From positions 1 to 64,000 of the forward strand of contig JAVTVY010010595.1 in assembly GCA_036873755.1 (NCBI GenBank): a stretch of 64,000 nt of DNA. Direction: 5' to 3'. Both the position numbers and the translations under genes were made by a program. Shown here one piece after another: positions 1 through 59,060 of the stretch. Position 1 is the first letter of the stretch. The number at the start of each line of letters is the position of its first letter. The stretch is from Hanleya hanleyi. Its lineage: Eukaryota > Mollusca > Polyplacophora > Lepidopleurida > Hanleyidae. Below the pieces are notes generated by a model, which worked only from the letters and a program-made list of their open reading frames with translations, was not told where the DNA came from and did not search any database.

Positions 1-21
1 GACTTACGCTGGAGAAATATT

Positions 22-549
22 TTGTGTTTCTTTTCCAATTTTAAACCGGTGTCATTTTGCAATAAATGCGAGTGCACGTATAAAATTTATTTCAAGTTGA
101 ACTGGGGGCAACTGATCGTGTAGCATTGAAAAATTTAGAAGGGTAGCGGTAGACTAAGCCACTATTTTAATGATTTTATCGATTTTTAGACCCGTAACGT
201 TATGGTTAGGGTAGTGTAGAAAACCCGGTACACTGGAAATAAATCGGTTTTCCTGGGTAAAAATACGTCAAGTATGTTCCTCACAGCCTTATAATGTCAC
301 CCTGAAAATTGTAGCCAGTTTATCGAAAGAAAACTAGGAAATTTTATAGTATCACACGGGCTACGGTAACACAGCACTATACAGTGTGCAGGCAAATGTG
401 AGTAGAGCTATGGGTGTCAAATGGACTGTGTTACCGTAGCCCAAGGATAAAATTTCCTACTTTTTTTCTTTTCGATAAAACATGCTGCAGTGAACTCACA
501 TTTATTGCAAAAATGAGACCGGTTTTAAAGTTGGGAAAATAAAACACAA
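22..549. repeat. Nested imperfect palindrome at left edge of the CARD/RING unit
   Basis: Three nested pairs of inverted arms can be read. The outer arms are 22-73 and 494-549 (both contain the AAACCGGT/ACCGGTTT core and TTTATTGC). The middle arms are 319-347 and 447-479 (TTTATCGAAAG and its complement). The apical arms are 357-374 and 425-441, with GGGCTACGGTAACACAG perfectly complementary. The left side carries about 235 bp (78-310) with no partner. This could be a fold-back MITE or the hairpin end of a linear replicon. It lies immediately before the first 26-bp array. The pairing is seen directly; the role is inference. Confidence 0.75.
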
Positions 550-566
550 TTTTTTTTTAGCAGGTA

Positions 567-724
567 CCGCCATCTTGGACCCAATCCCACAGCCGCCATT
601 TTGGTCCCACTCCCACAGCCGCCAGTTTGGTCCCACTCCCACAGCCGCCATTTTGGTCCCACTCCCACAGCCGCCATTTTGGTCCCACCACCCACAGCCG
701 CCATTTTGGTCCCACCACCCACAG
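567..724. repeat. 26-bp tandem array, 6 units, upstream of RING gene
   Basis: Six head-to-tail units of 26-27 bp. Each typical unit has GCCGCCATTTTGG followed by TCCCACTCCCACA. The first and third units each carry a substitution in the CCATTTT part, and the last two units have CCACCACCCACA. GCCGCCATTTT is the reverse complement of AAAATGGCGGC, which matches the published YY1 consensus AANATGGCGGC. The array ends 11 bp before a TATA box, where upstream activating elements would sit. A longer copy of the same unit lies upstream of the opposing gene. Confidence 0.9.
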
Positions 725-735
725 AACGCCTAGAC

Positions 736-743
736 TATAAATA
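736..743 (+). promoter_or_regulatory. TATA box of the RING gene
   Basis: TATAAATA lies between the end of the 26-bp array and the first ATG at 781. That leaves room for a start site near 765-770 and a very short 5' leader. The mirror-image gene has the same array/TATA/ATG layout, which supports a real RNA polymerase II core promoter. Confidence 0.75.
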
Positions 744-780
744 ACGCGTAGTATGTTGCCATTTATTCACAACTACAATC

Positions 781-1134
781 ATGGGTACAAGACGAAGGCT
801 ATTCAACGATCCTAGAGAACACAGAGAGGTGATTACGAGTGAAGAACATAACGATGGAGTGACAATAATTACAAGCTTTGAGCGGGTTATTGCCGACGAA
901 ACGATGATACGGCGAAGTGAAGAACAACTCGAAGAGCTCAGGAGGGTGGCAATGGAAGAAGATGCGAGGTTGATGAGACGGCGAAGTGAAGAACAAGACG
1001 AGGAGATGAGGAGGGTGGCAATGGAAGAAGATGAGGATGTACCTACGGACGATGAAGAACTCCCCGACCTCCCCGTCTGTCCCCGAGTAACAGACCTCCA
1101 GCAAATACAACGGCTACCCAAACACCAATTATAA
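781..1134 (+). CDS. Acidic, Arg/Glu-rich repeat protein, probable N-terminal part of the RING gene
   Basis: A 117-codon frame that starts 38 bp after the TATA box, with an A at -3 (context CAATCATGG). Residues about 44-84 hold two imperfect copies of a 23-residue charged helical repeat (RRSEEQ...LRRVAMEED), encoded by a 69-bp tandem DNA repeat at about 910-1032. It is predicted to form a coiled coil. An acidic tail (DEDVPTDDEELPD) follows. No known family was recognised. The frame closes shortly before the RING frame opens (+1 relative), and the next frame is already open and Asn/Thr-rich from about 1090. The two may therefore be one protein separated by a frameshift (error, programmed shift or pseudogenisation) or by a very short intron (GT at 1039, AG at 1092-1093, 55 nt). 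Separate translation is also possible. Confidence 0.6.
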   Translation: MGTRRRLFNDPREHREVITSEEHNDGVTIITSFERVIADETMIRRSEEQLEELRRVAMEEDARLMRRRSEEQDEEMRRVAMEEDEDVPTDDEELPDLPVCPRVTDLQQIQRLPKHQL

Positions 1135-1246
1135 CAACGCCGGCTACAGAAACACGAACGCCACCTACAACAACAACAACAACAACAACAACACACCACC
1201 ATGCTCTTGGGCCGAGGTAACCCGCCTCAACGAGCAGATTAATCAC

Positions 1247-1528
1247 ATGAGACAAGACATGGATCAAATGGACGCTGTGAATTTAAAACAACAACAAGAC
1301 CTAGATAAGGAAGAAAGTAAATCAAGCTGCAGCGTGTGTACAGACGACGAAAGCCTGTACGCCCTATTTCCGTGCGGGCATTTATGCCTATGTGAAGAAT
1401 GCTGGGTGACGCTAACATGTATAGGGGACACGTGCCACTGCGCTGAAACGGACGAACAGCATTTAAAGATCAAGTGTCCCGTGTGTAGGAAGCAGGTGGC
1501 CGGGGTAAAGAGAATCTACCGCTCCTAA
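1247..1528 (+). CDS. IAP-like C3HC4 RING-finger protein (putative E3 ubiquitin ligase)
   Basis: A 93-codon frame whose upstream codons are open back to about 1090 through a poly-Asn (AAC)n run, so the true N-terminus may lie earlier. A short heptad-like helix (about residues 1-25) is followed by a RING with spacing C-x2-C-x11-C-x-H-x3-C-x2-C-x24-C-x2-C. The pieces CSVC, FPCGHLCLCEEC and CPVCRK are all visible. The PCGH and CPVCR signatures resemble RINGs of IAP/BIRC-type E3 ligases. The 24-residue loop before the last CxxC pair is longer than usual. By family knowledge it should recruit an E2 and ubiquitinate substrates. The stop lies 26 nt before a histone-type 3' stem-loop. The opposing gene encodes a CARD protein, and CARD plus RING are the two signalling modules of cellular IAPs. 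Confidence 0.8.
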   Translation: MRQDMDQMDAVNLKQQQDLDKEESKSSCSVCTDDESLYALFPCGHLCLCEECWVTLTCIGDTCHCAETDEQHLKIKCPVCRKQVAGVKRIYRS

Positions 1529-1549
1529 AACAAGTGTCGTAACACTTTT

Positions 1550-1593
1550 CCAAAGGCCCTTTTCAGGGCCAACCAATGTTTTCGAAAGAGAAC
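1550..1593 (+). terminator. Histone-type mRNA 3' end: stem-loop plus histone downstream element
   Basis: CCAAA, then the 16-nt stem-loop GGCCCTTTTCAGGGCC (1555-1570; 6-bp stem, TTTC loop), then AACCA. This matches the metazoan replication-dependent histone consensus GGCYCTTYTCAGRGCC and its flanks. Fourteen nucleotides downstream, GAAAGAG (1584-1590) matches the purine-rich histone downstream element that pairs with U7 snRNA. By established knowledge SLBP and U7 snRNP cleave between the two and leave a non-polyadenylated, S-phase-restricted mRNA. There is no histone gene here: the reading frame that ends 26 nt upstream is the RING ORF. Confidence 0.88.
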
Positions 1594-1665
1594 TTCTAAA
1601 CTCAAAGCACAAAAAACACCAGCTCCCATCACCCCTATGAAAAAACCTAAGGTCTTCACCACAAT

Positions 1666-2146
1666 AGACTCTTAATGTTGAATTTTTTTAATACAATTAT
1701 CTTTTGCAAAAGAATGAACACTAACAGCCATTTTTTGAATTTTCTACTATTTTTTATTAACACAAATAGAATGAACGTGTTCACCAGACTCTGGGTATTG
1801 AATTTTTAATACAATTATACGCTATGAAGGCGCTTCAATGCACATAGAATGAACATAAAATGAACATAGTGTAGGAATACGTCAGGAGAGAAGCCGTATT
1901 TTCAGCTTGAGCAAGACTGGCAGATGATAATGTCTGAATGTTCCAATGCAATAAGACTTGAAAATGTTCAATATTTATACAACAAGACAATAGAATGAAC
2001 GTCTTCAGTAAAACTCTGAGTATTGAATTTTAATACAATTAACAGTAAAACTCTGAGTATTGAATTTTTAATACAATTATACGCTATGAAGGCGCTTCAA
2101 TGAACGTGTAGGAATACGGTAAATGTTTTCAACACAAGACTTGAAA
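1666..2146. repeat. Intergenic direct repeats between the two convergent genes
   Basis: An AT-rich spacer with several copies of TATTGAATTTTTAATACAAT (about 1796, 2017, 2058; a degenerate copy at about 1677). Two of these are followed by ACGCTATGAAGGCGCTTCAA, which contains the palindrome TGAAGGCGCTTCA (1825-1837 and 2087-2099). AGAATGAACGT also recurs. Each copy carries ATTAAA on the minus strand, a variant poly(A) signal that could serve the minus-strand gene. No reading frame of note. Confidence 0.65.
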
Positions 2147-2149
2147 TGT

Positions 2150-3508
2150 TCAATAGTTATGCAACAAGACTTGTTTGAACTCATCATCGTCTTTCCGCCC
2201 CTGGTGCACGTAGATGTAGGTAGCAATCTGTTCACGTGGAATTCTGGGAGCGCAGGCAGCTTCCAATGCCAGGGCAATTTGCTCCTCGGTGACGGTCTGT
2301 AGTGCCTCAGTGATGAGCGCGTATGAGGGTATTATATTCTCCACACACGTATGCATGTTTATCGGACTGTTGTTCACACAGCCTGCACATGCTTCGATAC
2401 GCAAGTGTCGAATGCGAGGTCTGACATGATCCAGGAATGTGTCGATGTACTTCTTACAAATATACTGAGTCACCTGGTCAGACAGGGCTTCATGAATTAT
2501 AGCTGTGAGACTCTGCAACTTCCGCCACGCCGTTATTTTCAAGGTGACACCCTGAGGACAAGGAACACGCTCTTGCGTATCTAACCTCATTTTCCATTTC
2601 CGTATATGCACCAGGAGCTGGTCGTTGAAATAGGCACAGCTGACAAAGATGTCGTCACCCACATAAAATTTCGCTTCGTCACTCCCCTGGTCGCGAATAA
2701 CCGCATCGACGGCGTAATCAAGGGTCTGTAGTTTTAGCCAGGTGTCGAAGGTCAAGGCGATATGCCTAGCTGGTCTGTCGTTAAAGGCCGGTGCGTTAAA
2801 ATGCACTTCTTCGTCTTTGACACTCACAGTTAAATAGGCTGAGAGCTCCCAAATGTTCGTGTGGGCTGCCTGGAAGGCCTGCTGGATAATGTTATTGATC
2901 TCCTGCACAGACATAGGAAGTTGCACCTCTTCTTCTTTCACTGGCTCAGGCACTTGCTGGGGCACTGGCTGAAGCACTTGCTCAGGTATTTCTAAATGTG
3001 TTAGTCGGGGCCGTTTGGGTCGTGCAGCGCGTTTGGCAGGTACACCAGACTCTGGGTGCGTACGTTTGCTAACTGTACGCTCTTCGGTGGTGTCCATGAC
3101 TAAGATATCATCATCTTGTACAACGTGGGCTTGAAGTAGATCTGCTAGTTCTTCATTTCCCGTCTTCTTCAACCCCTCCACGAAGGCTAGAAATGCATAG
3201 GGGGTAGAGCGCAGTAGACCGTCGATGAGGGCTCTGTTTTGTGATGAAGTGGTTTTCTCAGCCATGATATCTTCGACACGCTGTTTCAGGAGTATGTTTT
3301 CCTCCATAAGCAGATCACATAATTCGGCCACATGCTGCATCTCATCAATGAGGCGAACACGGTACTTTCGAAGCTTCACTAAAAAGTATGACTCCATGAC
3401 TGTGGGCTCAGGCTGGTGAGTAACTGCTACGGTGTAATAGTCTGGTGAATTTGCACTGGTAAAATGAAAAAAAGTAAAAGGTTCTCCACAGCTCATACAA
3501 GCAGGCAA
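2150..3508 (-). CDS. CARD / PC4-like domain protein (452 aa)
   Basis: Intact single-exon frame. Residues about 40-127 read as a CARD: a basic first helix (LRKYRVRLIDEM), then LCDLLMEENIL, IMAEKTTSSQNRALIDGLL, and the diagnostic last helices YAFLAFVEGLKKTGNEELADLL. A basic stretch at 147-169 (AKRAARPKRPRL) looks like a bipartite nuclear signal. A Pro/Gln/Glu linker follows. Residues about 284-342 match a PC4/p15 ssDNA-binding fold (DDIFVSCAYFNDQLLVHIRKW, then GVTLKITAWRKLQ, then an amphipathic helix). Residues 223-272 look like a diverged second copy. The tail has CAGC and a free Cys. Start: M1 follows a microsatellite leader; M38 starts exactly at the CARD and is an equal alternative. Family knowledge: CARDs assemble death-fold signalling complexes; PC4 binds ssDNA and acts as a transcription coactivator. 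The combination is unfamiliar to me. CARD call strong, PC4 moderate. Confidence 0.8.
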   Translation of the reverse strand: MPACMSCGEPFTFFHFTSANSPDYYTVAVTHQPEPTVMESYFLVKLRKYRVRLIDEMQHVAELCDLLMEENILLKQRVEDIMAEKTTSSQNRALIDGLLRSTPYAFLAFVEGLKKTGNEELADLLQAHVVQDDDILVMDTTEERTVSKRTHPESGVPAKRAARPKRPRLTHLEIPEQVLQPVPQQVPEPVKEEEVQLPMSVQEINNIIQQAFQAAHTNIWELSAYLTVSVKDEEVHFNAPAFNDRPARHIALTFDTWLKLQTLDYAVDAVIRDQGSDEAKFYVGDDIFVSCAYFNDQLLVHIRKWKMRLDTQERVPCPQGVTLKITAWRKLQSLTAIIHEALSDQVTQYICKKYIDTFLDHVRPRIRHLRIEACAGCVNNSPINMHTCVENIIPSYALITEALQTVTEEQIALALEAACAPRIPREQIATYIYVHQGRKDDDEFKQVLLHNY

Positions 3509-3607
3509 GCAGGCTGGCTAGAGGTGAGGCAGGCAGGCAGGCAGGCAGGCTAGAGGTGAGGCAGGCAGGCAGGCAGGCAGGCAGGCTGGTCAGGTCAGTC
3601 AGGCAGG
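3484..3607. repeat. (AGGC)n microsatellite in the leader of the CARD/PC4 gene
   Basis: Runs of GCAGGCAGGC interrupted twice by TAGAGGTGAGG. It lies between the TATA box and the M38 codon and supplies the first residues of the longest frame (M1-C7), which makes the upstream start less certain. Confidence 0.9.
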
Positions 3608-3644
3608 TAGTGCAATGAATACACCCACCCCTAAAAATCACCTC

Positions 3645-3652
3645 CTTTTATA
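3645..3652 (-). promoter_or_regulatory. TATA box of the CARD/PC4 gene
   Basis: On the minus strand the sequence reads TATAAAAG, 14 bp inside the second 26-bp array and about 140 nt before the first ATG. The spacing mirrors the TATA box of the RING gene. Confidence 0.72.
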
Positions 3653-3666
3653 CGTTTTTCTACAGT

Positions 3667-3926
3667 CCGCCATTTTGGTCCCACTCCCACAGCCGCCATT
3701 TTGGTCCCACTCCCACAGCCGCCATTTTGGTCCCACTCCCACAGCCGCCATTTTGGTCCCACTCCCACAGCCGCCATTTTGGTCCCACTCCCACAGCCGC
3801 CATTTTGGTCCCACTCCCACAGCCGCCATTTTGGTCCCACTCCCACAGCCGCCATTTTGGTCCCACTCCCACAGCCGCCATTTTGGTCCCACTCCCACAG
3901 CCGCCATTTTGGTCCCACTCCCACAC
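3667..3926. repeat. 26-bp tandem array, 10 units, upstream of CARD/PC4 gene
   Basis: Ten almost identical 26-bp units (GCCGCCATTTTGG + TCCCACTCCCACA) in the same genomic orientation as the 6-unit array at 567-724. They are therefore inverted relative to the transcription of this gene. Each unit carries one YY1-type site. The near-absence of divergence suggests recent expansion or homogenisation. Long open frames across it on both strands are artefacts of the 26-codon/78-nt periodicity. Confidence 0.93.
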
Positions 3927-3945
3927 TTGCACTCAGTGACCCCTG

Positions 3946-3953
3946 TGACGTCA
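3946..3953. promoter_or_regulatory. Consensus CRE palindrome
   Basis: TGACGTCA, the full CREB/ATF palindrome, 20 bp outside the 10-unit array on the distal side from the gene. An 8-bp match may be chance; its position next to a promoter array is the only support. Confidence 0.35.
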
Positions 3954-3973
3954 TAGTTACATCCGGGTGAAAT

Positions 3974-4481
3974 GTGGCTCAGATCACGCTTACCCTACTA
4001 CTGATACAGACGACAAATTGTCACGGGGGTGCAAAAACTGCCTCTAAGGGGATAGCTATCCTTAATACTCGGAAGCGTATCAAATTTAATGTGCGAAGGG
4101 AGATGTTCAGTGATCCTATAACGGAGGAATATGGTGAAGATATTCAAGAGAGAAGGCAGTACTGTTTGAATCAAGACTATGACTATATTGTGGCGAAGGA
4201 AAAGAGATTGTGTCAACAGTTTTACAATGAGGTAACTTATTGTCATGATATCAAATGATTTATACTCACAATGAAATTTTGAAAACGCCAGTCATCTTCA
4301 AAACGAACACAAGATTGTCTATGCATGGGGAAGCTACCGAATGGAATATTGGGCAGGAAACAAAGAACCTATTCAAGAATTAGTAACTGGTAAATATGTG
4401 TTGGGCATTGACGATTCGGAAAATGAGAATGGTTTACATTGGAATGAATCAACGACTTCTGTGAACATGGTTCATCGTTAA
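3974..4481 (+). pseudogene. Coding-like remnants of unknown origin
   Basis: A 94-codon frame (3974-4258; protein-like in its second half, e.g. SDPITEEYGEDIQERRQYC) is followed by a second frame open at 4275-4481. The second frame reads IVYAWGSYRMEYWAG and YVLGIDDSENENGLHW and ends in TAA at 4479-4481. Both have ordinary amino-acid composition but no start or splice sites that I can defend. They may be part of the neighbouring CARD/RING unit or an unrelated TE. No family recognised. Confidence 0.3.
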
Positions 4482-5814: not shown

Positions 5815-7256
5815 TTAAAACCTGTCGTCTTGCTGGCCTTGGTCCCATGGATACTCGCTGTGCTGTAATTAGGAGTCGGATGGAGTAGAGGTTGTCACAT
5901 GCCAGCGTCATGTCACGGAGGTAGGAGGATTTCTTGTTTAGCTTTAGTATCGAAAGGGATAAACAATCGCCTCCTGCTCTCCCTCAGATCTTTAGTACGA
6001 TTTATATAACACGCAAGTGCACGAATCGGACACATAAATATGTTAGATTCCAGACCGGACGAAAGGAAATCAGATAAGGCAGGAATTGTGAACTCTCGAC
6101 ACATGGTGTCGTAGATAGCTTGATTCTTGGCAGCAAAATCAGGAACGGTGGATAGTACTGCATATCTCCAGTTCCTGGACTGTCTGATGTTCCTATAATC
6201 GAGCACATGGAGCTCCGACACACGAGCTGCTGACGCAAGTGCCATCGAAAACAACGAGGTTCTGTACGAAAGCATCTTCAGATCAACTGTATTGATCGGC
6301 TCAAAAGGCGCCTCCCCCAAATTACAAAGTACAAGGGCTAGGTTCCACTTCGGTAACTTGGAAGTGACCGACTGATTCGTAATTTTGAACGATTCAATAA
6401 TCACCATCAAATTCGAATCAGTCAAAGGATTGATCCCAATGCAAAGAAGAATAGACTGAGCTATTGCTGCTCTGTAACCTTCTACTGTTGATGGTACCAA
6501 GCCCCTATCCCTGAATAGGTAGAGTATGAGATCTGCTAGTTGGGGAATAGTGGCTCTGGATGGATTGATATCTCTCTTGCCATACCAAACAACGAAGACT
6601 GCCCACTTTGATTGGTAAACTGCGGAGGAGGGCCGGATTGATTGTACCATTCGGCGCTCAACTTCCGCAGTAAATCCCGCCTGAGTCATGTGTCCTTTGA
6701 GCACCCGTGGTAGTGTTACAGCCCCAGTTGACTGTGGAATGTCGACGACCCGGGTTGACGCAATAGGTTGTGCCAAAGCGGAAGCCGTCTTGGTACGTCC
6801 ACCAGAAGATCCAGAAGGTCCGGGAACCACGGCCTTGCTGGCCACCACGGAACTATTAGATATATGACACAACTGTGTTCGTGGATCTTCTGTGGTACCC
6901 TCACAAGGATTGCTGGGGGTGGAAATGCATATGCTATCATGCCCGACCAGTCCTGCGATAGAGCGTCCACTGCATATGCCGTCGGATCCGGGATCGGAGA
7001 CATGAACATTGGCAATTGGATGTTGCACCGTCTGGCAAACAAATCCATGTGTGGCATCTTTCAGATATAAGCTATCTGTTTCTATATTATGTCTGGGTGA
7101 ATTCCCGGGATGTGCCTGGCCAACACTGTTATGTTGTTGGCCCAACACAGACCAGAAAAGATCTCCGTTTGGGTTTGTAATTATGTTGATATAGGACACG
7201 ACTGAATGTTGTCCGCTGCTATCAGCAGGTTCTTGTCGATCAATATGCTCACCCAC
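5815..7256 (-). pseudogene. DIRS methyltransferase-like region and tyrosine recombinase, core deleted
   Basis: The methyltransferase-like part is in a shifted frame at 6716-7057 (MDLFARRCN, YAVDALSQDW, VPWWPARPWFP). The recombinase is open at 5913-6760: N-terminal core-binding part (VYQSKWAVFVVWYG, STVEGYRAAIAQ), then the first catalytic block (ALASAARVSELHVL). After AKQEI the frame jumps to YLRDMTLAC (near 5910-5880, other frame). The roughly 60-65 residues that in the second copy hold the HxxR motif are gone, while the YLRDM segment with the likely catalytic Tyr survives. Confidence 0.78.
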
Positions 7257-7303
7257 GTGCGGATAGCAGGTGTCACTGCTATAAACTCAAACACATTTAT
7301 ATG

Positions 7304-8524
7304 TTAAGAGCGTTCCTCGATTGTCCAAATCCCGGATGTCGACTTGGACTCGAAGTGGGCTACCCAACCTTCATAGATGCGCCTGTGTACAGATGATGTG
7401 TCGGACGAAACGGAAGTAGGGACACGCCTGGCATAACGTTTAAGTGGATCCAGCCACCATTGGAGGCATTGGTTGACAAGATGCGTGACTGGTATCCATG
7501 GGTTCAACTGCCTTTCAACCCATTGATGATTGAAGTAAATCATTAAGGGAGGAATCTGCAGACGACCTCTTGGTATTACGTCCTGTGTAGACATCAAGAG
7601 GCTGACTATCGCAGCAAAGTGTAGATCCCTGGCTTGAGATAACTTGAGAAACTGAGGTATCTGTTTTGTTATCTTTTGCCAACGATCTTCTGGGGGTTTG
7701 GTGAGAGCTAGTAGCGTATCGTAGTCCACCCCAAGAAATTTGCACCTTTGCGACGGAGTCAGTTCTGATTTCTCTTCGTGTGGGAGGTGACACAGAGATA
7801 TCAGTATCCTTCAGACAAACTGCGTGTCCCGGATTAACTGCTCTTTGCAGGTATTCCTTAGGATAAAGTCATACTTTATATTACCTAGACTGTGCAGGAA
7901 TAGTGTCACTGGTGTAAACAGTCGCGTGAACCCCCAGGGGGAAGTTGAAAGGCCGAACGGAAGTGCTTGAATTTGGAAGCGTCGTTTGCCGACCATGAAG
8001 CTCAAGTACTTTCTGTCCGGTGGATATATATGCATATGTAGGTATGCCTCCCTTAAATCCAGGGAGGTCAGTCATTCCCCCTGCTTGAGGACCGACCAGA
8101 TGGACCGGAAGGACTCCATGTGGAAGTATGGCAGTGGAGTAAGGTAGTGCTTGTTGAGCCGATTGAGGTTGCTAAACACATGCATCTCGGACGGGTCTTT
8201 CTTGGGGACCAGCAAGACTGGTGAATAGAACCCTGGAGTTTTGTCACAAACCGTAAGTTCTATGACGGCCACTTTCTCTATCAGCTTGTCCACAGAGGAT
8301 TGTATTGCTGATAGATGACCCGCTCGCAAAGGGATGCGAGATGAATCGCAGTCAATGGCGGAATCGTGTCGAACGATAGGCAGTAGCCATATCTTATTGT
8401 TCGGATGACGCATGATTCCGCCCCGATTATTGTCCAGTTCCCCCAAAACAACTGATGTCTTCACCCTACCAGAGGATCTTGTTGTGGCGGGACCGGAAAC
8501 CTGATATGCCAGTCTTTCCACCAT
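7304..8524 (-). pseudogene. DIRS reverse transcriptase / RNase H, frameshifted
   Basis: Fragments read in order: FYSPVLLVPKKD and LNRLNKHYL (fingers/palm); LTSLDLREAYLH (motif A, Asp retained, after an in-frame stop near 8072); FQIQALPFGLSTSPW (motif B). The position of the YxDD box reads KYDFIL, so catalytic Asp residues are lost. Thumb/connection follows (DYDTLLALTKPPEDRW), then the start of RNase H (SSDTSSV...GWVAHFESKS...GIWTIEER). At least three frame breaks. Non-functional. Confidence 0.8.
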
Positions 8525-8554
8525 ACTGGAAGCCAGCCGGTATGAACCGAAACA

Positions 8555-10345: not shown

Positions 10346-11254
10346 GCTTCAAATTAATAAGGTATTCCCGAGTTGTGACGTTGCATCACAAGAGTCGGCG
10401 GATCAAACGGTGGGGCATATTCTATATATTGAGTATAGAGAATATCCATACTTCCACCATCTATATCAAGGAGTTCAAATGATTCCGAATTAAAATGTAT
10501 TTCTTCAAATTTTAAATCAGTTTCCTTTAGTCCATGCCGTTGCAAGTGAACTGCCCCACCGTTTCCTCTGCCGATGGGTCGGCTACATGAGGGATGTCAC
10601 TCTTGTCACTCAACGTCACAACTCGACAACTGTAGACTATCGGTACTGCATGTTTCGATCCAACGGAGATAATCAGGATTCACACACTTTCAACATAACT
10701 GTAGGGACCGTATCCCTTCAATATTAAGTTGTGTATCGGTACCACCTTGCTATTTTAGAGGATGGTATCTCAAAACAGATATCTTAAAGTAACCCAGTAA
10801 GCAGAACAGAATTAGCATTCGTTCCTAATTATAAAATCTTCGGTAGGCCTACATATGTTTCATAGCTCATGCCAAATTGTCAAAAAGATTTGTCTTCGCT
10901 TACAATACACAATGATGACACGTGCAAAAAAATATATACTAGAAAACGAAGATGAAGGATCCTCCCGACATTCAGTTTCAGACTTATCTAACTTTGCTCA
11001 TTTCACTTGTACTATAACAACCGACATGTCAAGTACAGTTTCTAGAAATCTTGAAACTCCTGAAACTTATAAAGATATCTTGGTGTTTTCCTGTATCCCT
11101 TTTTCAATCTTTTTCGCTCAAAATAAATTCAAAATTCTGCAAACAAAATTACCAATCAATTGTTTGTTCTTAGTAACAATGGACAAAAAGATCCTCTTTT
11201 CATTAGCTTACAATTATCAGACAATGGTGGGCGCCAAGATCCTTGAGGATCTCT
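10346..11254. other. AT-rich stretch with one unassigned frame
   Basis: A 166-codon plus frame (10855-11355) runs into the inverted repeat. Its composition (Phe/Ile/Lys/Thr mixture, no motif) and lack of flanking signals make it more likely chance than gene. Nothing else seen. Confidence 0.4.
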
Positions 11255-12952
11255 CGTTCAATATAAGATGTGATATATATGTTACATTCTTAGAAGCACA
11301 AAACCGTAGACCTTTCTCTGGATTGCTAGCTACCAATTGGGATCAAGGCCATTAAACAACTTGGAAATCTGGACCAGTGTAATTCCAGATGTACGGGTGT
11401 ATATTGAAGCCCCTTGGACTCTTGTTTTTAAATTGGAATGTTATTCGCGCAGTAAAACTTATCTCGCTTCCACTTATTGCACTCTGTGTCCTCACTGAGT
11501 CGACTACTTAAAGAATCTAAAAATAATACAGATCCCAGCCTGCGCAGGTCACGTGCATGCTCACACCCAAACCAAAATATTGTTCCTTCAACTGAAAGTC
11601 CCAAGTCCCCATTACTGTTCAGCTCTGTGAAAATCAAAGTTTTTCGATGAAATCACTACTGTCATGACTGTTGGATTACCTTACAATGACTGATATTCTA
11701 CAAGAAGTCCTTTGGGAAGTATTCTTTACAATTATCAAGCGATATATGGCCTCTCACATGTCGCAAATGTCTTGCATCTCGTGTGGTAAAGCAAAACCTT
11801 TGTTTTTGGGCACCGGGTTTATTCAAAACCTATCTAAACGGGACACTGGCAGGCGTAGAAAGCCCGCAAGTGTCTCAAACTATCGCTGGCCAGGCGATGT
11901 GTGTAGCTGCATCTCCCCATTCTAATGTAGAAAATAAGGAGGTTAAGTAACGAGGCATGCTGATTCGGCAGTCGGGGGGAATATGCTAGGATTTATTGAC
12001 GTACAAAAAGATAAACCATCCCCCCCCGACCCAGTTTCTTTCTTTTCAGACTCCACAAAAGTTCTTACAGGTAAGAGACTGACTAAAATGGTTCTAGTGT
12101 AAGGAACTCTTGAAGACATCAGTTCCGGCAACACATTATGAAGGTGGACGTCAAACTTCCGCTCTCCAAGACTCCTATGGATGATAACGGAGAATCGGAG
12201 ACAGGACCAGGCGTGGTGTCGGAGAGCCAGTTAACTTATGATGCATCGACGGCTAAGTTTTCATTTTGTCCTGGGCCCATGATATGCCTTCCTCAACCTG
12301 GTTGAGGTCTGTATTTTCGATCCTTGCTAACACCTACTAATGTAGGGACCACTGGTCAGTCTAATATTCTACGGGCGACTTCCGGTTTCTCTGGTGGCCC
12401 TACTCGTCCCCCTGCCGATGACTATGAGCCTTCTGAGCCACCAGAGATTGAGGTTCCCACACCACCAGGCAGATATGTATGCTAGTACCGTAAATATGCC
12501 AAGACCTACACCAAGCCCTGTAACGCAGTATCAAGACTCTTTACAACTAGGCCAAGTCTATCGGCATCCGGTTGTGAGAACGTATCAGCCCTTGCACGGC
12601 TTGGCACAAGTGTTGACTTCCGGTGGTGTAGGTGGTTCTGGTCCGGGTCTGCTACGTGCGATGCTCCCCTCCTGTCCGTGCTTCTGGTTTCCACTTATGC
12701 CAGTTCACCGACCTTTACAATGGCCGTGTGCGGCCAAGCGTGTGGTCATTGAACCACACCCCATCAGGCCTTGCTTCCAGTTCACTCTCAAGTTTCCAAT
12801 CCTGTCCTGGCTGCTATCCTCGCGGGGATGAAACACACAGGAAATGAAGGAACTGAGAGAGGCTATGGCCAGTCGATTCCCGGGCGGTACTACACTGCAT
12901 CCAGTATCAACTGACCAGCCGGAAACTAATTTGATGGGGTCTATCCCCTCCA
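11255..12952 (+). repeat. Left arm of a 1.7-kb inverted repeat
   Basis: From TTCAATATAAGATGTGATAT (11255) to GGGGTCTATCCCCTCC (about 12952) this arm is the reverse complement of 13523-15291 with only scattered substitutions. It starts with the dispersed repeat also seen at 5272 and 63480, then carries a gag-like region (MKVDVKLPLSKTPMDDNGES at about 12138; a Pro-rich DYEPSEPPEIEVPTPP stretch; LLPVHSQVS...LAAILAGMK). Confidence 0.93.
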
Positions 12953-13420
12953 AGAGTCTCTACTGGCAGGAAGCCTGGGAGGATATGGAGGAGGATAGGG
13001 ATCAATACAGAGATTCAGAATATAACGAACCTACCAATGTTCTCCCGGATGCAGTACACTTCCTGCCTCAACTTCTATCCATTCTGTATGCGACTTGTCA
13101 GAACGTTAGCTCAACTCACTTCACAGAAGGAACGTGCTATCATATACATTTACCTGTATATGGCGAGATTCTGCTGGTGGACGTTTCGTCCCCGAGGTCC
13201 GCCCCCTGTAAAGACCTTTTGGTCTTTGATATATGTTGGCATTGTGGGAAGTTGAAGCTGGGTCGACATCGGGCCTAAGTACAGACATGACAGACTAGTC
13301 TTTTGTGTTAAATGCCGTCATTTTCATCTGACGACGATACAGCTCACCAATCCCCAGTGTACGAGTTGTCACAGCGACACAGCTCACCAATTACCAATAT
13401 ACGCTCTCTAGATTTGTATC
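12844..13420 (+). pseudogene. Degenerate gag-like zinc-finger ORF spanning the inverted-repeat spacer
   Basis: An open frame at 12844-13278 (MKELREAMASRFPGG start, amphipathic helix; DVSSPRSAP; ends CWHCGKLKLGRHRA, stop). After a frame change it continues as KYRHDRLVFCVKCRHFHL...NPQCTSCH until about 13410. Together these give four Cys pairs or half-pairs, like the N-terminal zinc finger of DIRS-type ORF1. The Ala-rich LLPVHSQVS...LAAILAGMK helix lies just upstream. Likely a broken structural protein of a retroelement; assignment tentative. Confidence 0.4.
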
Positions 13421-13522
13421 TAATACCATTTATGCCGGTGCTAGGGGCCATGTGGTCATGTCATCCAAGTTGCCACATGAACAGCTACAATAAAAGCGTA
13501 CCCGAGATACAACACATCTTCG

Positions 13523-15291
13523 AGGGGATAGACCCCATCAAATTAGTTTCCGGCTGGTTAGGCTGGTCAGTTGATACTGGATGCAGTGTAGTACCGCCCG
13601 GGAATCGACTGGCCATAGCCTCTCTCAGTTCCTTCATTTCCTGTCTCTGCTGTTTCATCCCCGCGAGGATAGCAGCCAGGACCGGATCGGAAACTTGAGA
13701 GTGAACTGGAAGCAAGGCCTGATGAGGTGTGGTTCAATGACCACACGCTTGGCCGCACACGGCCATTGTAAAGGTCGGTGAACTGGCATAAGTGGAAACC
13801 AGAAGCACGGACAGGAGGGAAGCATCGCACGTAGCAGACCCGGACCAGAACCACCTACACCACCGGAAGTCAATACTTGTGCCAAGCCGTGCAAGGGCTG
13901 GTACTTTCTCACAACCGGATGCCGATAGACTTGGCCTAGTTGTAAAGAGTCTTGATACTGCGTTACAGGGCTTGGTGTAGGTCTTGGCATATTTACGGTA
14001 CTAGCATACATATCTGCCTGGTGTTGTGGGAACCTCAATCTCTGGTGGCTCAGAAGGCTCATAGTCATCGGCAGGGGGACGAGTAGGGCCACCAGAGAAA
14101 CCGGAAGTCGCCCGTAGAATATTAGACTGACCAGTGGTCCCTACATTAGTAGGTGTTAGCAAGGATCGAAAATCCAGACCTCAACCAGGTTGAGGAAGGC
14201 ATACTCACAGGCCCAGGACCAAATGAAAACTTAGCCATCGATGCATCATAAGTTAACTGGCTCTCCGACACCACGCCTGGTCCTGTCTCCGATTCCCCGT
14301 TATCATCCATAGGAGTCTTGGAGAGCGGAAGTTTGACGTCCACCTTCATTGTGTTGCCGGAACTGATGTCTACAAGAGTTCCTTACACTAGAACCATTTT
14401 AGTCAGTCTCTTACCTGTAAGAACTTTTGTGGAGTCTGAAAAGAAAGAAACTGGGTCGGGGGGATGGTTTGTCTTTATCTACGTCAATAAATCCTAGCAT
14501 ATTCCCCCCGACTGCCGAATCAGCATGCCTCATTACTTAACCTCCTTATTTTCTACATTAGAATCGGGAGATGTAGACACATCTCCTGGCCAGCGACAGT
14601 TTGAGGCACTTGCAGGCTTTCTACGCCTGCCAGTGTCCCGTTTAGATAGGTTTTGAATAAACCCGGAGCCCATTTTATGCATTCCTCACACACACTATCC
14701 CAGGTGCACACGACCCCATGTTAGTAGCTTGGGCAAGTAGAATGGAGGTCAAACAAAGATTTTGCTTTACCACACGAGATGCAAGACATTTAAGACATGT
14801 GAGAGGCCATATCGCTTGATAATTGTAAAGAATACTTCCCAAAGGACTTCTTGTAGAATATCAGTCATTGTAAGGTAATCCAACAGTAGTGATTTCATCG
14901 AAAAACTTTGATTTCACAGAGCTGAACAGTAATGGGGACTTGGGACTTTCAGTTGAAGGAACAATATTTTGGTTTGGGTGTGAGCATGCACGTGACCTGC
15001 GCAGGCTGGGATCTGTATTATTTTTAGATTCTTTAAGTAGTCGACTCAGTGAGGACACAGAGTGCAATAAGTGGAAGCGAGGTAAGTTTTACTGCGCAAA
15101 TAACATTCCAATTTAAAAACAAGAGTCCAAGGGGCTTCAATATACACCCGTACATCTGGAATTACACTGGTCCAGATTTCCAAGTTGTTTAATGGCCTTG
15201 ATCCCAATTGGTAGCTAGCAATCCAGAGAAAGGTCTACGGTTTTGTGCTTCTAAGAATGTAACATATATATCACATCTTATATTGAATGAT
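13523..15291 (-). repeat. Right arm of the 1.7-kb inverted repeat
   Basis: Near-identical reverse complement of 11255-12952. The clearest structural difference is an extra ~80 bp (about 14673-14752, containing CATTCCTCACACACAC) that is absent from the left arm. Small differences (ACCGGATCGG against AATCCTGTCC near the centre) show the arms have begun to diverge. Confidence 0.93.
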
Positions 15292-54215: not shown

Positions 54216-57200
54216 CTATGCATATATGCTCTTATCAAATCGAATGTGTGTATTGTGTCCCTCTAAATCATCAAGAAAATCATACACCGCATTCAGATCA
54301 ATATTTTCGACAGGATTCCAATGATGTGGCATATATCTAGATTTGAATAATTGTGTTCCCATCTCAAACTGGTATTTGAAAATCTTGAGGGAGTGTGGCA
54401 CTGAAGTTCGTCGTTGAACTAATTTGCGATCGAAGGGATTTTCCTCATACCATTCTTTTTCTGTCTGATAAGTCATTTGTCGTACATGTACAATTAAGTG
54501 ATGGATTTTGTTTTGGGGTATCCGATTAAGTGGGAACCAGGCTGCGCCCCGCACCTGTTCCTTTGTTTTGTATACTATTTTCACACAATACTTGCCATCA
54601 GCGAACTTGATTTTCTGAATCGCTTCTATTTTTACACTTTTAATATCTATCATGGGTTGCTGTTTGGACATTAACTCACTTCGATCGGAGTTAACAAATG
54701 CCACAGTTTGTTCAGATTTCTTCATGAAAAACTTATTTTGGCCTAAAGGTTTGCGCCTTTTCTTGCCAGACAATGTTTTGTCAGCATGATATTGTCGACG
54801 CAGCTCATCTGGGAGACTCGTATCATGCTCCCAGGTGGAGCCTCTAGTCTTGTCTACCCATTTAATCCTGTAGCACATTCGTCCATTGTAACGTTTTGAT
54901 GCTAGAATTTTGTCAATTTCAGTCACTAGGAATTTGTTTGGTGTTGTTACCAAGTTGGGATCTTGATTTGTATTTGAGCTTGGCATTGTACCGGTACCTT
55001 TAGGATGTTGAATGGTTTTAAGTGTTACTCTTGTTTTTGCCTGTTCATTGTTCTCAAGTGCTACTTTTGTTTTTGGGACATGATGGTCTTTTGTTTCTTT
55101 TGTTACATTGTTCCGTTTGTCATTGGTATTTGTCTTGTTTTCATCATTTTCTGACTCTATTTCTTCTGGATTGAGTTCATCATTTGTTTGTGGTAAATCT
55201 TCAGGCTCATAGTTTGGCCTGTCTGCTGGGTCATGAAACTTTTTGAGACGGTTTGCGTGAATCATTGATTTCACTTCTTTATCATCACTACATTTGCGCA
55301 ATTTGTATGTGTAGTTTTGCCCAACCAATACAACATAATATGGTCCTTGCCACTTTTTTGTTAGTTTGGGAGATCGGCCCACAGTCTTTTTGGTACAATA
55401 TAACCATACCTTTTGTGCTGGCTCGAATGTTGGTTCCTTTGTTCTTCTATCATAATAAGTTTTGTATTTTGTTTGGGCTTTTTTCAAATTTTCATCTGCA
55501 ATTTTTCTATACTCAGCCAGATTGTCTAGAATTTTTGACAAGTATGTTCTATGATCCTTTGACAGTGTTTCTTTTGGAATTAGAGTGGTATCTATTGGTG
55601 TTCTCATCTGTCTACCAAACAGCATTTGATAAGGAGATAAGCCAGTTGATTGAGTGGCTGGGGTCATGCGGTATGCCATCATAATACCTGGTATATGATC
55701 TGGCCAATCAGTTTGATCTTCCTTGATATAGGCTCTTAGACCCTGCTCAATGACGCGATTCATTCTTTCACATGTAGCATTTGTTGCAGGATGATATGAA
55801 CTAGTTTTAGCATGTTTGATGTTGAATAATTCTGTCATGGCTGCTATGAGTTTGGACATGAATTGAGCACCGCGATCGCTGACTAATTTGTCTGGTGACC
55901 CATAACGTGTAAGAATCTCTCTGTATAAAATGGATGCAACTTCAGTGGCCTCCTGGGTTTTCATAGGAAAACATTCTGGCCATTTGCTGTAAGAATCCAC
56001 TACAAGGAGTAGATATTTGGAACCATCCGGAGTTTTTGGAAGTGGGCCGAGTATGTCAATATGAAGCCGCGAGAAAGCACGTTCATATGGCAAGGGTTTA
56101 AGTGGTGCAGGCTTATCATGAACATTTGTTTTGATCTGTTGACATGTCGTGCATGTACGTACATAGGTACACACATCTGTGTACATTTTATCCCAATGAT
56201 ATTTGGATCTTATAGCAGCATACATTCTTTCTTGACCTTGATGGCAACCTCCTAGCACTGAATCATGATAGGCTTGGAGTATATCTTTGCGATTACCTCT
56301 AGGAACAGCTATCTGTTTGGTATAAGAATCGGCAGCCTTTTTATTTTTTGTATTAAAGAAATGATACAGAATTCCGTCCTCAATCACATAATGATATGCT
56401 TCCGCAACTAAGCGACGACTCTGTTTTGGATCATCCGGTAGATCACCATTTTCTTTGTAGGCAAAGATCGGGGCCAAGTCAGGACACTCACGTTGTGTGC
56501 CCTCCAAAAATGGATTTGAAATTACAATTTCAGTATTGACTTGTGCCACAACAATTGTATCTTTTGGACATATAGTTGCTAAATGAGCATGTTTCGGTTC
56601 CCTATATGTTAGAGTTGCCTCAATTGACTCATTTTGATTCTCTGTATTGGATAAATAGGTGGTTTCTATACTACTCACAATGGTTTCTTCTGTACTTTCA
56701 GTTGTAGTTGCTTCATATTCTCTTCTAGACAAACCATCAGCATTTCCGTTTTTAGCTCCTGGCTTGTACTGAATAGTGAAATTGTACTCTTGAAGCTCGA
56801 GGGCCCACCTGCCTAGTCTACCTTTGTTAGCTTTTATGTTGTTTAACCAAGTGAGGGCAATGTGGTCAGTGAAAACACGAAAGTGACCATTTGCGATGTA
56901 TGGACGAAAGGCACGAACTGATTCAACTAATCCAAGACCTTCTTTCTCTGAGATATGCCATGTCTTTTCACTACCGCGCAGGGATCGTCCTCCAAAGGCT
57001 ATAGCATGTTCATTGCCTTTTTCATCTTTTTGTCCTAAAACATATCCTATTGCACTATCAGACGCATCTGTTGAAATAATGAATTCTTTTTGGAAATCTG
57101 GATATGCTAATATAGGGGCTGTGACAAGTGCTTGTTTGAGTGCTTTGAATGAATTTTCAGTGTCATCGGTCCATTTGAATTTAACGTCTTTCTGAAGAAG

Positions 57201-59060
57201 TTGATTCATGGGGGATGCTATTGAAGCATAATTTTGTACAAATTTGCGATAGTAATTGCATAATCCTAGGAAACTTCGAACCTCTTTCTGTGATTTTGGT
57301 CTGGGAAATGACTTAGCAGCATGAACTTTGGCTTCATCCACATGAATACCTTGATCACTTAGCACATGTCCTAGATACGGAACTTGTCGTTGTGCAAATG
57401 CGCATTTTGGCGGTTGTAATTTAAGATTTGCTTCCCGTAAGCGAGAGAAAATTTGTCCAAGATGGACCATATGTTCATCCAATGTGTTTGAATGACATAA
57501 AATATCATCTAAATAGCATAGGGTGTGAAGATAAGTAAGGCCGGCAAGGACCTGTGACATCATGAGACAGAAGCTGGCGGGCGAATTTCTCATTCCAAAC
57601 GGGAGAACTCGGAATTGGAACCTTCCCTGATCCGTCGTAAATGCGGTTTTTGGTTTCGTGTCTTCATGTAGTGGAATTTGCCAAAAACCACTTGCCAGGT
57701 CAAGAACAGAAAATATTTTAGACTTTGCCTGTGCTACAGAGTCGATAGCATCTGATAACAATGGGATGGGAAAAGAAATCGGTTCTGTGATCGCATTCAG
57801 CTTGCGATAGTCTACCGCAAATCTATATTTTCCATTTTTCTTTTTCACAAGCACTACAGGGGATGACCATTCAGATAGTGATGGTTCAACTATGTTATTT
57901 TCTAACATTTCTTTCACTAATTCATCACATCGCTGTTTTGTCTGGGGGCTTTGTCTGTATGGACGTGAATAAATCGGTTTTTCCGTTTTAGTGAAAATTC
58001 TGTGATAATGAGCACTAGCTTTGCCTAATTCACTCATATCTTTGGCAAAAACATCACGGTTACGACCAAGAAATGCTAAAAATGACTCCTTTTGCTTGGG
58101 TGTAAGTATGGAATCGTCTAGTGTTATTCCTAGGTCTCGTGCTAGGTTAGCATAATAAGCATCACTTTTCGTGTCTCCTTCCATGAAATTTACATCAGCG
58201 GAGTTGTTTGATGTATTCTCTTGTTTCATTGTTGTAATCGAGTCTGGTGTAACTACGTGAAATGTGGCAATTGTTGCATGCTTCTCGATATAGACGGGAA
58301 GGTTGGATGGGTTCATTACTTTGTAAATAGCCATTTTGTTTTTAACTTTTGCGACAGTGCGCGCACCTGCAATGCTATATTTTGCTGAAAGTGACTCTAT
58401 TGGTTCCAATAAGATCAAATTTCCATCACCTGCTTCAGGTACATATACAGGAAAATTTATTTCACGCTTTGGTTTAACCAGAATAATGTCTGTTGTTTTG
58501 GCACTCCCAGATTCTTTATGTCCATATGTTTTGTTGTTTGTTTCAGGCGCCATGGAAATGTTAAACTGACCATTGCAAAGCAATAGTTTGTTCCTTTTAA
58601 AATCAATGTTTGCATCATATTTCCTTAGGAAATCCTCTCCTAAAATTACATCTTTGTGTAATGTTTTAAATACATAAAATTCTCCATTGAGCTCTTCAAG
58701 ATCTTCAAATTGAATTGGTAAATTCACTACGCCTAAGACGGAATGAACTTCACCACAAACACCTGTAATGGCTCGTAAATTACATGTATTAACGACAGCA
58801 TTTGGGTAGGCTTTCTGCAAACACCGCTGTGAAATGCAAGAGATGCTTGCCCCTGTGTCGACTAAAGCATGTGTTTTTAACTTGCCAACCTTGATATGCA
58901 CTGAGCTTTTCTCAAGGGGTGTTGTGAGAGAAATGTTAGGTCTCACTTGACAATGTATGCTATTGTAAGCTCTACCAACTTTTTGACAGTTGTGTTTGTT
59001 GCACTTCCAGCTGGCCATTTTACTGTTTAAGGTTAAATCAGTTTTGAATTTCCAAGACAA
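54216..59060 (-). CDS. pol: Ty3/Gypsy Pol polyprotein (PR-RT-RH-IN-chromodomain), intact
   Basis: 1614 codons, no internal stop. Aspartic protease around residues 50-165 (ALVDTGASISCIS, Asp68). RT about 355-570: motif A SVLDLASGFW (Asp454), VLPFGMRNSPASF, YLDD at 516-519. RNase H about 655-780 (STDASDSA, Asp665; TDHIALTWL). Integrase: zinc-binding H932/H940/C970/C973; DDE core D1002 (LHIDILGPLP), D1062 (SDRGAQF), E1098 (NATCERMN). GPY/F module about 1210-1275 (KKWQGPYYVV). Acidic/Lys linker, then a chromodomain about 1377-1425 (VTEIDKILASKRYNG, YRIKWVDKTRGSTWEHD), as in chromoviruses. A further ~190-residue C-terminal part is unassigned. Met1 (or Met15) lies ~330 nt inside the 5' LTR; the N-terminus has Cys residues but no clear CCHC knuckle. 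Confidence 0.95.
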   Translation of the reverse strand: MSWKFKTDLTLNSKMASWKCNKHNCQKVGRAYNSIHCQVRPNISLTTPLEKSSVHIKVGKLKTHALVDTGASISCISQRCLQKAYPNAVVNTCNLRAITGVCGEVHSVLGVVNLPIQFEDLEELNGEFYVFKTLHKDVILGEDFLRKYDANIDFKRNKLLLCNGQFNISMAPETNNKTYGHKESGSAKTTDIILVKPKREINFPVYVPEAGDGNLILLEPIESLSAKYSIAGARTVAKVKNKMAIYKVMNPSNLPVYIEKHATIATFHVVTPDSITTMKQENTSNNSADVNFMEGDTKSDAYYANLARDLGITLDDSILTPKQKESFLAFLGRNRDVFAKDMSELGKASAHYHRIFTKTEKPIYSRPYRQSPQTKQRCDELVKEMLENNIVEPSLSEWSSPVVLVKKKNGKYRFAVDYRKLNAITEPISFPIPLLSDAIDSVAQAKSKIFSVLDLASGFWQIPLHEDTKPKTAFTTDQGRFQFRVLPFGMRNSPASFCLMMSQVLAGLTYLHTLCYLDDILCHSNTLDEHMVHLGQIFSRLREANLKLQPPKCAFAQRQVPYLGHVLSDQGIHVDEAKVHAAKSFPRPKSQKEVRSFLGLCNYYRKFVQNYASIASPMNQLLQKDVKFKWTDDTENSFKALKQALVTAPILAYPDFQKEFIISTDASDSAIGYVLGQKDEKGNEHAIAFGGRSLRGSEKTWHISEKEGLGLVESVRAFRPYIANGHFRVFTDHIALTWLNNIKANKGRLGRWALELQEYNFTIQYKPGAKNGNADGLSRREYEATTTESTEETIVSSIETTYLSNTENQNESIEATLTYREPKHAHLATICPKDTIVVAQVNTEIVISNPFLEGTQRECPDLAPIFAYKENGDLPDDPKQSRRLVAEAYHYVIEDGILYHFFNTKNKKAADSYTKQIAVPRGNRKDILQAYHDSVLGGCHQGQERMYAAIRSKYHWDKMYTDVCTYVRTCTTCQQIKTNVHDKPAPLKPLPYERAFSRLHIDILGPLPKTPDGSKYLLLVVDSYSKWPECFPMKTQEATEVASILYREILTRYGSPDKLVSDRGAQFMSKLIAAMTELFNIKHAKTSSYHPATNATCERMNRVIEQGLRAYIKEDQTDWPDHIPGIMMAYRMTPATQSTGLSPYQMLFGRQMRTPIDTTLIPKETLSKDHRTYLSKILDNLAEYRKIADENLKKAQTKYKTYYDRRTKEPTFEPAQKVWLYCTKKTVGRSPKLTKKWQGPYYVVLVGQNYTYKLRKCSDDKEVKSMIHANRLKKFHDPADRPNYEPEDLPQTNDELNPEEIESENDENKTNTNDKRNNVTKETKDHHVPKTKVALENNEQAKTRVTLKTIQHPKGTGTMPSSNTNQDPNLVTTPNKFLVTEIDKILASKRYNGRMCYRIKWVDKTRGSTWEHDTSLPDELRRQYHADKTLSGKKRRKPLGQNKFFMKKSEQTVAFVNSDRSELMSKQQPMIDIKSVKIEAIQKIKFADGKYCVKIVYKTKEQVRGAAWFPLNRIPQNKIHHLIVHVRQMTYQTEKEWYEENPFDRKLVQRRTSVPHSLKIFKYQFEMGTQLFKSRYMPHHWNPVENIDLNAVYDFLDDLEGHNTHIRFDKSIYA

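Follow-up and report, generated by a model that had tools for sequence, protein, structure and literature searches.

A RING-finger gene in the 64-kb window (the whole stretch of DNA analysed here, which is the start of contig C10113 in a genome of 2.48 Gb and 52,793 contigs) ends in a histone-type 3′-end signal. Judging from sequence, it is probable that a Maverick/Polinton-type element equips several of its genes with the host type of histone 3′-processing signal, and that a poly(A) signal lies behind the adjacent CARD-PC4 gene. To our knowledge, histone-type 3′ ends are almost unknown outside the replication-dependent histones. Searches of the open-licence literature yielded no report of a transposon, Polinton, endogenous virus or DNA virus with such ends and, for Mavericks and adintoviruses, no precedent for an accessory cassette bearing them. 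The features of the window that bear on this finding are listed below (HDE, histone downstream element).

1–4002, unstranded: accessory-gene end of the mobile unit; its left side is lost at the contig start (the window begins at base 1 of C10113), and its right terminus, CTACTACT, ends at 4002
19–375, unstranded: repeated module, flanked in other copies by RING1 and RING2 (blastn of L041 and L042)
358–374 and 426–442: inverted repeat with 17-nt arms, overlapping the right edge of the 19–375 module
567–730, forward strand: 26-bp repeats with GCCGCCATTTTGG, upstream of RING1 and followed by TATAAAT at 736
781–1134, forward strand: N-terminal part of RING1, in a frame different from that of the RING part in this copy
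1091–1528, forward strand: RING-finger part of RING1 (Pfam PF13920, 1.1e-8, above cut-off)
1526–1528, forward strand: RING stop codon TAA; the histone-type stem begins 26 nt downstream
1532–1547, forward strand: companion hairpin AAGTGT-CGTA-ACACTT, 7 nt before the stem-loop
1550–1554, forward strand: 5′ flank CCAAA
1555–1570, forward strand: histone-type stem-loop GGCCCT-TTTC-AGGGCC, 6-bp stem and loop UUUC (Rfam RF00032 and pattern match)
1571–1575, forward strand: 3′ flank AACCA
1571–1583, forward strand: 13-nt spacer between stem-loop and HDE; cleavage would be expected 4–5 nt past the stem
1584–1590, forward strand: HDE GAAAGAG; a 6-bp hairpin predicted for this copy has the GAAA as its loop
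1758, reverse strand: AATAAA of CARD-PC4, 391 nt behind its stop
2150–3508, reverse strand: convergent CARD-PC4 gene (Pfam CARD 1.5e-13, above cut-off; PC4 4.5e-5, below cut-off), without a stem-loop
3667–3925, unstranded: second 26-bp GCCGCCATTTTGG array, upstream of CARD-PC4, with TATAAAA at 3652 on the reverse strand
3945–4002, unstranded: conserved unit terminus, GTGACGTCAT...ATCCGGGTGAAAT...CTACTACT

The 6-bp stem and the 4-nt UYUN loop at 1555–1570 were obtained alike by pattern, Rfam and fold, UYUN being the loop rule of histone stem-loops. The Histone3 family (RF00032) scores 34.6 bits here against a gathering score of 34 (E = 2.8e-6), a narrow margin, and it alone exceeds its gathering score among the nine Rfam matches with E ≤ 5 in the window. 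With up to three mismatches allowed, the stem-loop pattern occurs once in the 64 kb (0.22 expected). A purine-rich HDE, expected 10–20 nt downstream of the stem, is present as GAAAGAG after 13 nt. The initial annotation had identified the stem-loop and its CCAAA and AACCA flanks as the histone 3′-end signal, 26 nt behind the RING stop, and the Rfam score, the sole pattern match in the window and the coordinates (TAA at 1526–1528, stem from 1555) bear this out. Its placement of the HDE at 14 nt also agrees, because the spacer is 13 nt long and the HDE starts at the 14th nucleotide. It had further assigned the signal to a RING gene: the RING part does end at 1528, but the gene occupies two frames rather than one in the window copy, unlike the single uninterrupted open frame of RING1 in L041, L042 and L043. 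The earlier description also overlooked the second hairpin at 1532–1547, between the RING stop and the stem-loop. In the predicted fold (−20.9 kcal/mol; z = −3.21, with 1 of 200 shuffles as good), the 72 nt past the RING stop form a row of three hairpins: the companion hairpin at 1532–1547, the histone stem-loop and one whose loop is the GAAA of the HDE. A chance match was ruled out by the Rfam score, the sole match in the window and the genome-wide counts against reversed-pattern controls.

How widely does the signal occur in the genome? The pattern CCAAAGGCCCTTTTCAGGGCC with up to three mismatches has 9,309 matches, versus 29 for the reversed pattern, and the exact stem-loop plus HDE has 3,527, versus none for the reversed-pattern control. 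Among the first 100 complete signals listed, three are no more than 100 nt away from an H3 match in the list (C288 has two of them and C763 one), and a fourth is inside the C288 histone cluster. Since just four of the 100 are at listed histone genes, the bulk of the signals are not histone genes; this overlap was judged among the histone matches listed, from a search in which 150 of 444 candidates were scored. For 52 of these 100, a further complete signal lies no more than 6 kb away. The possibility raised earlier, that the 3′ end of a histone pseudogene was fused here by chance, did not hold up: with 3,527 signals, borne by different gene families, a single fusion is rejected. In a covariance-model search of copies, as the initial annotation had proposed, Histone3 is above gathering (34.5–39 bits) at nine of 13 further element loci (L009, L013, L015, L017, L030, L032, L033, L041 and L042) and below it at four (L020, L027, L029 and L044); the MSTT ends likewise stay below gathering. 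The whole scan, which covered these 13 element loci and three host H3 loci, produced 13 matches in 16 sources. A stem-loop pattern search of viral contigs also returned two IMG/VR contigs (L039 and L040) with exact GGCCCTTTTCAGGGCCAMC.

The unit shares its 3′ signal with the tandem histone genes of the same genome. All 30 host H3 loci fetched have the stem-loop (27 exact, three with one change), and in most CGAAAGRG occupies the same place and is succeeded, as in the unit, by a sequence like CTTCTAA and then by GCACA. Where an HDE is present, stem and GAAAG are 13 nt apart in 21 of 23 unique host and 35 of 48 element signals; two of 25 host stem-loops have no HDE within 40 nt. Histone3 exceeds gathering in two of three host H3 loci (35.0 and 36.2 bits), the third being below. 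The 5′ flank differs, being CTAAC or CCAAC in 20 of 23 unique host H3 ends and CCAAA in the unit. With the metazoan replication-dependent histone 3′ end in general (RF00032; SLBP/U7), the unit shares the stem, the loop, the CCAAA and ACC flanks, the purine-rich element and the 13-nt spacing and, as in metazoan histone mRNAs, none of 22 RING1 copies has AATAAA within 300 nt of the stop. Unlike that 3′ end, the putative processing signal of the unit is located on RING and other mobile-element genes, usually after a companion hairpin. The host SLBP domain (PF15247) has two matches on C17340 (52.7 and 35.8 bits), both above cut-off. No credible U7 gene was found with Rfam (best score 27.1 bits versus 34) or by pattern (45 matches versus 75 in the control, the eight places fetched not being U7 genes by eye).

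Behind which genes does the signal stand? It was found behind at least three accessory gene families of the unit: RING1, RING2 and MSTT. On the sense strand, which the distance survey covered, the stop-to-stem-loop distance is mostly 23–27 nt for RING1, 17–20 nt for RING2 and 46–59 nt for MSTT; L025, at 12 nt, departs from these values, as do the split MSTT rows of L020 and L021. No stem-loop was found in this survey at two ends, with other DNA between gene and signal in L030 and a degenerate sequence in L027. Both strands of L041, L042 and L044 were read, and the eight stem-loops with an immediate HDE are all in sense orientation and lie no more than about 75 nt past a RING1, RING2 or MSTT stop. 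Among matches reaching the protein end with at least 300 nt behind it, the stem-loop is present in 21 of 22 RING1 copies (partly by construction), 13 of 14 RING2 copies and eight of eight MSTT copies, and in none of 25 CARD-PC4 copies. Its presence in L001–L038 is by construction, because L009–L038 were chosen by the exact stem-loop and L001–L008 by DNA containing it; L041–L044 were chosen for one signal each. In the same set of matches, AATAAA lies within 500 nt of the stop in two of 22 RING1 copies and in 24 of 25 CARD-PC4 copies (three of 25 within 300 nt). It also occurs within 300 nt in nine of 14 RING2 and five of eight MSTT copies, in the latter upstream of the stem-loop, and polyadenylation is therefore possible for these two genes. 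The core genes, in 9 kb of L130, have no histone-like stem-loop, the one weak match being without histone features. The signal as a property of all genes of the unit is thus ruled out, by its absence from CARD-PC4 and the core genes.

A companion hairpin of at least 6 bp precedes the stem-loop in 25 of 33 unique element ends, which are related to one another and hence non-independent, and in none of 12 unique host H3 ends, H3 being the only histone type compared; its frequency in mononucleotide shuffles is 5.2%. Seven of these 25 hairpins duplicate the histone stem itself. Examples from RING1 are AAGTGT/ACACTT or AACAGTGT/ACGCTGTT. In RING2, the hairpin is mostly GATGTAA/TTACATC, with the stop codon inside the stem. 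The RING2 covariation is confined to the outermost pair, which is G-C, T-A or C-G, with a G-A mismatch in one of 12, and the inner six pairs are invariant. Covariation in the hairpin around the HDE is weak (a mean of 4.52 of six pairs versus 4.21 in shuffles, 14 of 2000 shuffles reaching the value; 398 of 2000 do so in the same test on host ends).

In order to estimate rates of change, we picked 40 of 176 RING1 matches by hand down the protein-match list, without regard to the stem-loop, all reaching the last residue. A recognisable stem-loop is present in 38 of these 40 ends, a perfect stem with a UYUN loop in 26, GAAAGRG in 35, and a perfect stem-loop together with GAAAGRG in 25. The stem-loop is deleted in the other two, which are identical to each other. 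Within copy groups, 2.6% of letters differ in the stem, 1.9% in the loop, 1.7% upstream, 2.7% in the spacer, 2.0% in the HDE and 1.7% downstream; no constraint on single RING1 copies is visible, the stem changing as fast as its flanks. The four RING1 copy groups have the same stem and differ from one another in the loop at its fourth base only. Loss of the stem at the neutral rate in other copies, named in the initial annotation as evidence against the signal, is therefore found within groups (2.6% versus 1.7–2.7%) and not between the four groups, and because the stem is unchanged between them, we read the losses within groups as the decay of dead insertions. The fourth loop base also varies genome-wide (TTTC, TTTT, TTTG), and the two loop changes that break UYUN occur in one copy each of the 40.

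The fourth stem pair covaries. Among signals with an HDE, it is C-G in 3,527, U-A in 739, U-G in 47 and C-A in 13, giving 739 compensated versus 60 single changes; the 739 are non-independent, because many belong to arrays of tandem units of about 1.59 kb (C2220, C4579, C4830 and others). Compensated and GGCCCT signals occur together on C19, C74, C308, C728, C1020 and C1502. The units of such arrays on C2220, C4579, C4830, C6103 and C9314 have a GGCTCT/AGAGCC stem-loop with an HDE, and are perhaps a histone gene array. At the protein level, median dN/dS by distance class is 0.13–0.26 for RING1, 0.14–0.84 for RING2, 0.13–0.22 for MSTT and 0.44–0.80 for CARD-PC4, in a set that favours intact copies because just stop-free stretches of at least 85% coverage were used (22 RING1, 14 RING2, 7 MSTT and 24 CARD-PC4). 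The pairs are non-independent, and those with saturated dS (10 of 91, 11 of 21) are outside all bins.

The window, L041, L042 and L043 are common up to and including CTACTACT and diverge beyond it, which places the end of the unit at 4002; a terminus was seen at this one end only. The gene order in L041 and L042 is CARD-PC4, RING1, the divergent module of window 19–375, RING2 and MSTT. The module, present once in L041 and three times in L042, between RING1 and RING2, is probably a divergent promoter. The GCCGCCATTTTGG motif, which resembles the YY1 core site, has 13 exact copies, all on the forward strand in the two arrays and nowhere else in the window; E2F-type TTTSSCGC is absent from window 1–4200. 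At E ≤ 1e-3, neither RING1 nor CARD-PC4 has relatives in the protein collection, and RING has none in viral contigs; a search of the genome with RING1 brought up 7,400 candidates at first look, and 150 of them were scored. A further accessory gene, ‘pc4b’, lies at L041:8991–9929 and L042:1–798 (71% identity between copies, no Pfam match). A minisatellite of about 295 bp (L041:6585–8737, L019 and L023), which flanks the MSTT gene of L041 on both sides, has units with a histone-type stem, e.g. CCAAAGACCCTTTTCAGGGCC, without an HDE.

The unit looks like a Maverick/Polinton-like, adintovirus-like DNA element in very many copies, of which the window holds the accessory end; the linkage to core genes is clear in one locus, C5334 (L130 and L044). 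There, MSTT and RING2 follow a Maverick-type core, and integrase, MSTT and RING2 are successive within 5.6 kb. The core features of this copy, which is another copy than that of the window, are the following.

L130:2143–3924: PolB-like open reading frame, with PolB motifs by eye and no Pfam match
L130:4278–4754: adenain-type protease (PF00770, 24.8 bits versus cut-off 21.3)
L130:4758–6068: capsid protein, with 2,197 relatives at E ≤ 1e-3 and no Pfam match of its own
L130:8537–8956: packaging-ATPase-like open reading frame by eye, with no Pfam or PHROGs match
L044:896–2050: integrase rve plus chromodomain (PF00665 3.5e-11, PF00385 8.3e-6, both above cut-off)

The C5334 copy thus shares with Mavericks/Polintons (adintoviruses) the rve-plus-chromodomain integrase, the adenain-type protease, the capsid protein and, by eye, the PolB-like open reading frames. 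The unit differs from them in the accessory cassette of RING1, RING2, MSTT and CARD-PC4, in which all genes but CARD-PC4 have histone-type 3′ ends. The 120 listed of the 2,197 capsid relatives include proteins that carry a name, from molluscs (Littorina, Liolophura, Batillaria) and the sea cucumber Apostichopus, and one with precomputed PF21738; F54H12.2-like is a usual name of Maverick capsid proteins. PHROGs gave no match for five core proteins, and capsid and integrase have no relatives in viral contigs. The earlier suggestion that the RING gene belongs to a mobile or viral unit stands as regards the repeated unit and, in one copy, its Maverick-type genes; the core genes were seen in that other copy and not in the window. 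On C1593 (L032), a 61-residue piece of a PolB C-terminus (88.5% identity) lies 12 nt from the promoter module and may represent a rearranged or nested copy.

How would the signal act on the transcripts of the element? According to PMC5706932, SLBP and the U7 snRNP bring in the factors that cut histone pre-mRNA, and the histone stem-loop and SLBP are required for mRNA decay at the end of S phase. Because their signal resembles that of the host, the RING1, RING2 and MSTT mRNAs should follow the histone pathway. Host SLBP would bind the stem-loop and U7 snRNP would bind GAAAGAG; the histone cleavage complex would then cut 4–5 nt past the stem, leaving an mRNA without a poly(A) tail. Such a tailless mRNA would be made and be stable only during host DNA replication, so that the three genes, if processed as histone mRNAs, would be confined to replicating cells, a state from which the replication of the element itself could profit. 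Histone mRNAs are destroyed by 3′-to-5′ trimming, which the companion hairpin may slow down. The histone-type ends suggest that the element couples the expression of its signal-bearing genes to host DNA replication. A wider picture, which we put forward tentatively and with slightly more doubt than belief, is a Maverick-type virus lineage with a two-class 3′-end code, in which RING1, RING2 and MSTT would use the histone pathway in replicating cells only, the other genes would use poly(A), and the companion hairpin, with the stop in its stem in RING2, would tune the decay of the tailless mRNA after S phase.

Could the hairpins be DNA or RNA landmarks, serving replication, packaging, as a termination barrier or for another RNA-binding protein, rather than histone processing? 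We regard this as quite improbable. It would account for the 36 of 84 unique element stem-loops that have no HDE within 40 nt, among them the units of the 295-bp minisatellite and the first copies of tandem pairs, and for the retention of a companion hairpin of unlike sequence. However, the HDE-bearing stem-loops are in sense orientation just past stops in the three fully read loci, and their spacing is the one most frequent in the host; the fourth loop base is variable, as UYUN allows, with rule-breaking changes in one copy each of 40; and host H3 ends are alike. It is equally doubtful that a captured histone 3′ end hitchhikes without function on transcripts polyadenylated downstream. The neutral-like decay among copies and the AATAAA close behind many RING2 ends would fit, but three gene families bear the signal, even with MSTT protein identity down to about 30%, one pair of the stem shows compensation, MSTT is followed by a duplicated stem-loop, and just two of 22 RING1 copies have AATAAA within 500 nt.

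A somewhat less remote alternative, still unlikely in our estimate, concerns the carrier: the RING/CARD cassette may be a separate non-autonomous element, or another virus, adjoining Mavericks. Clear linkage in C5334 only, together with the possibly rearranged or nested PolB piece of C1593, would suit this alternative. Compared by eye, the PF03175 (PolB) and RING1 matches listed share no contig, and the PolB contigs C738 and C994 (two listed below C1516) are without a complete signal among the matches listed. Against it, C5334 has integrase, MSTT and RING2 within 5.6 kb, and the PF03175 matches test linkage poorly, because the PolB of C5334 is of another kind.

If the 3′ ends of the Maverick/Polinton-type element are processed as those of histone mRNAs, they would provide thousands of natural non-histone substrates for the sufficiency of SLBP/U7 processing and S-phase control, and the idea of a DNA element that reads the host cell cycle through its mRNA 3′ ends becomes testable.

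The window contains further elements. At 54216–59060 on the reverse strand, an open frame of 1,614 residues encodes protease, RT, RNase H and integrase domains and represents a Ty3/gypsy-type retroelement. Open reading frames at 5913–8554, also on the reverse strand, resemble by eye those of a DIRS-like retroelement, the two tested being without a Pfam match. Finally, positions 11254–15290 hold nested inverted repeats, 94–100% complementary, whose innermost arms are 561 nt apart.
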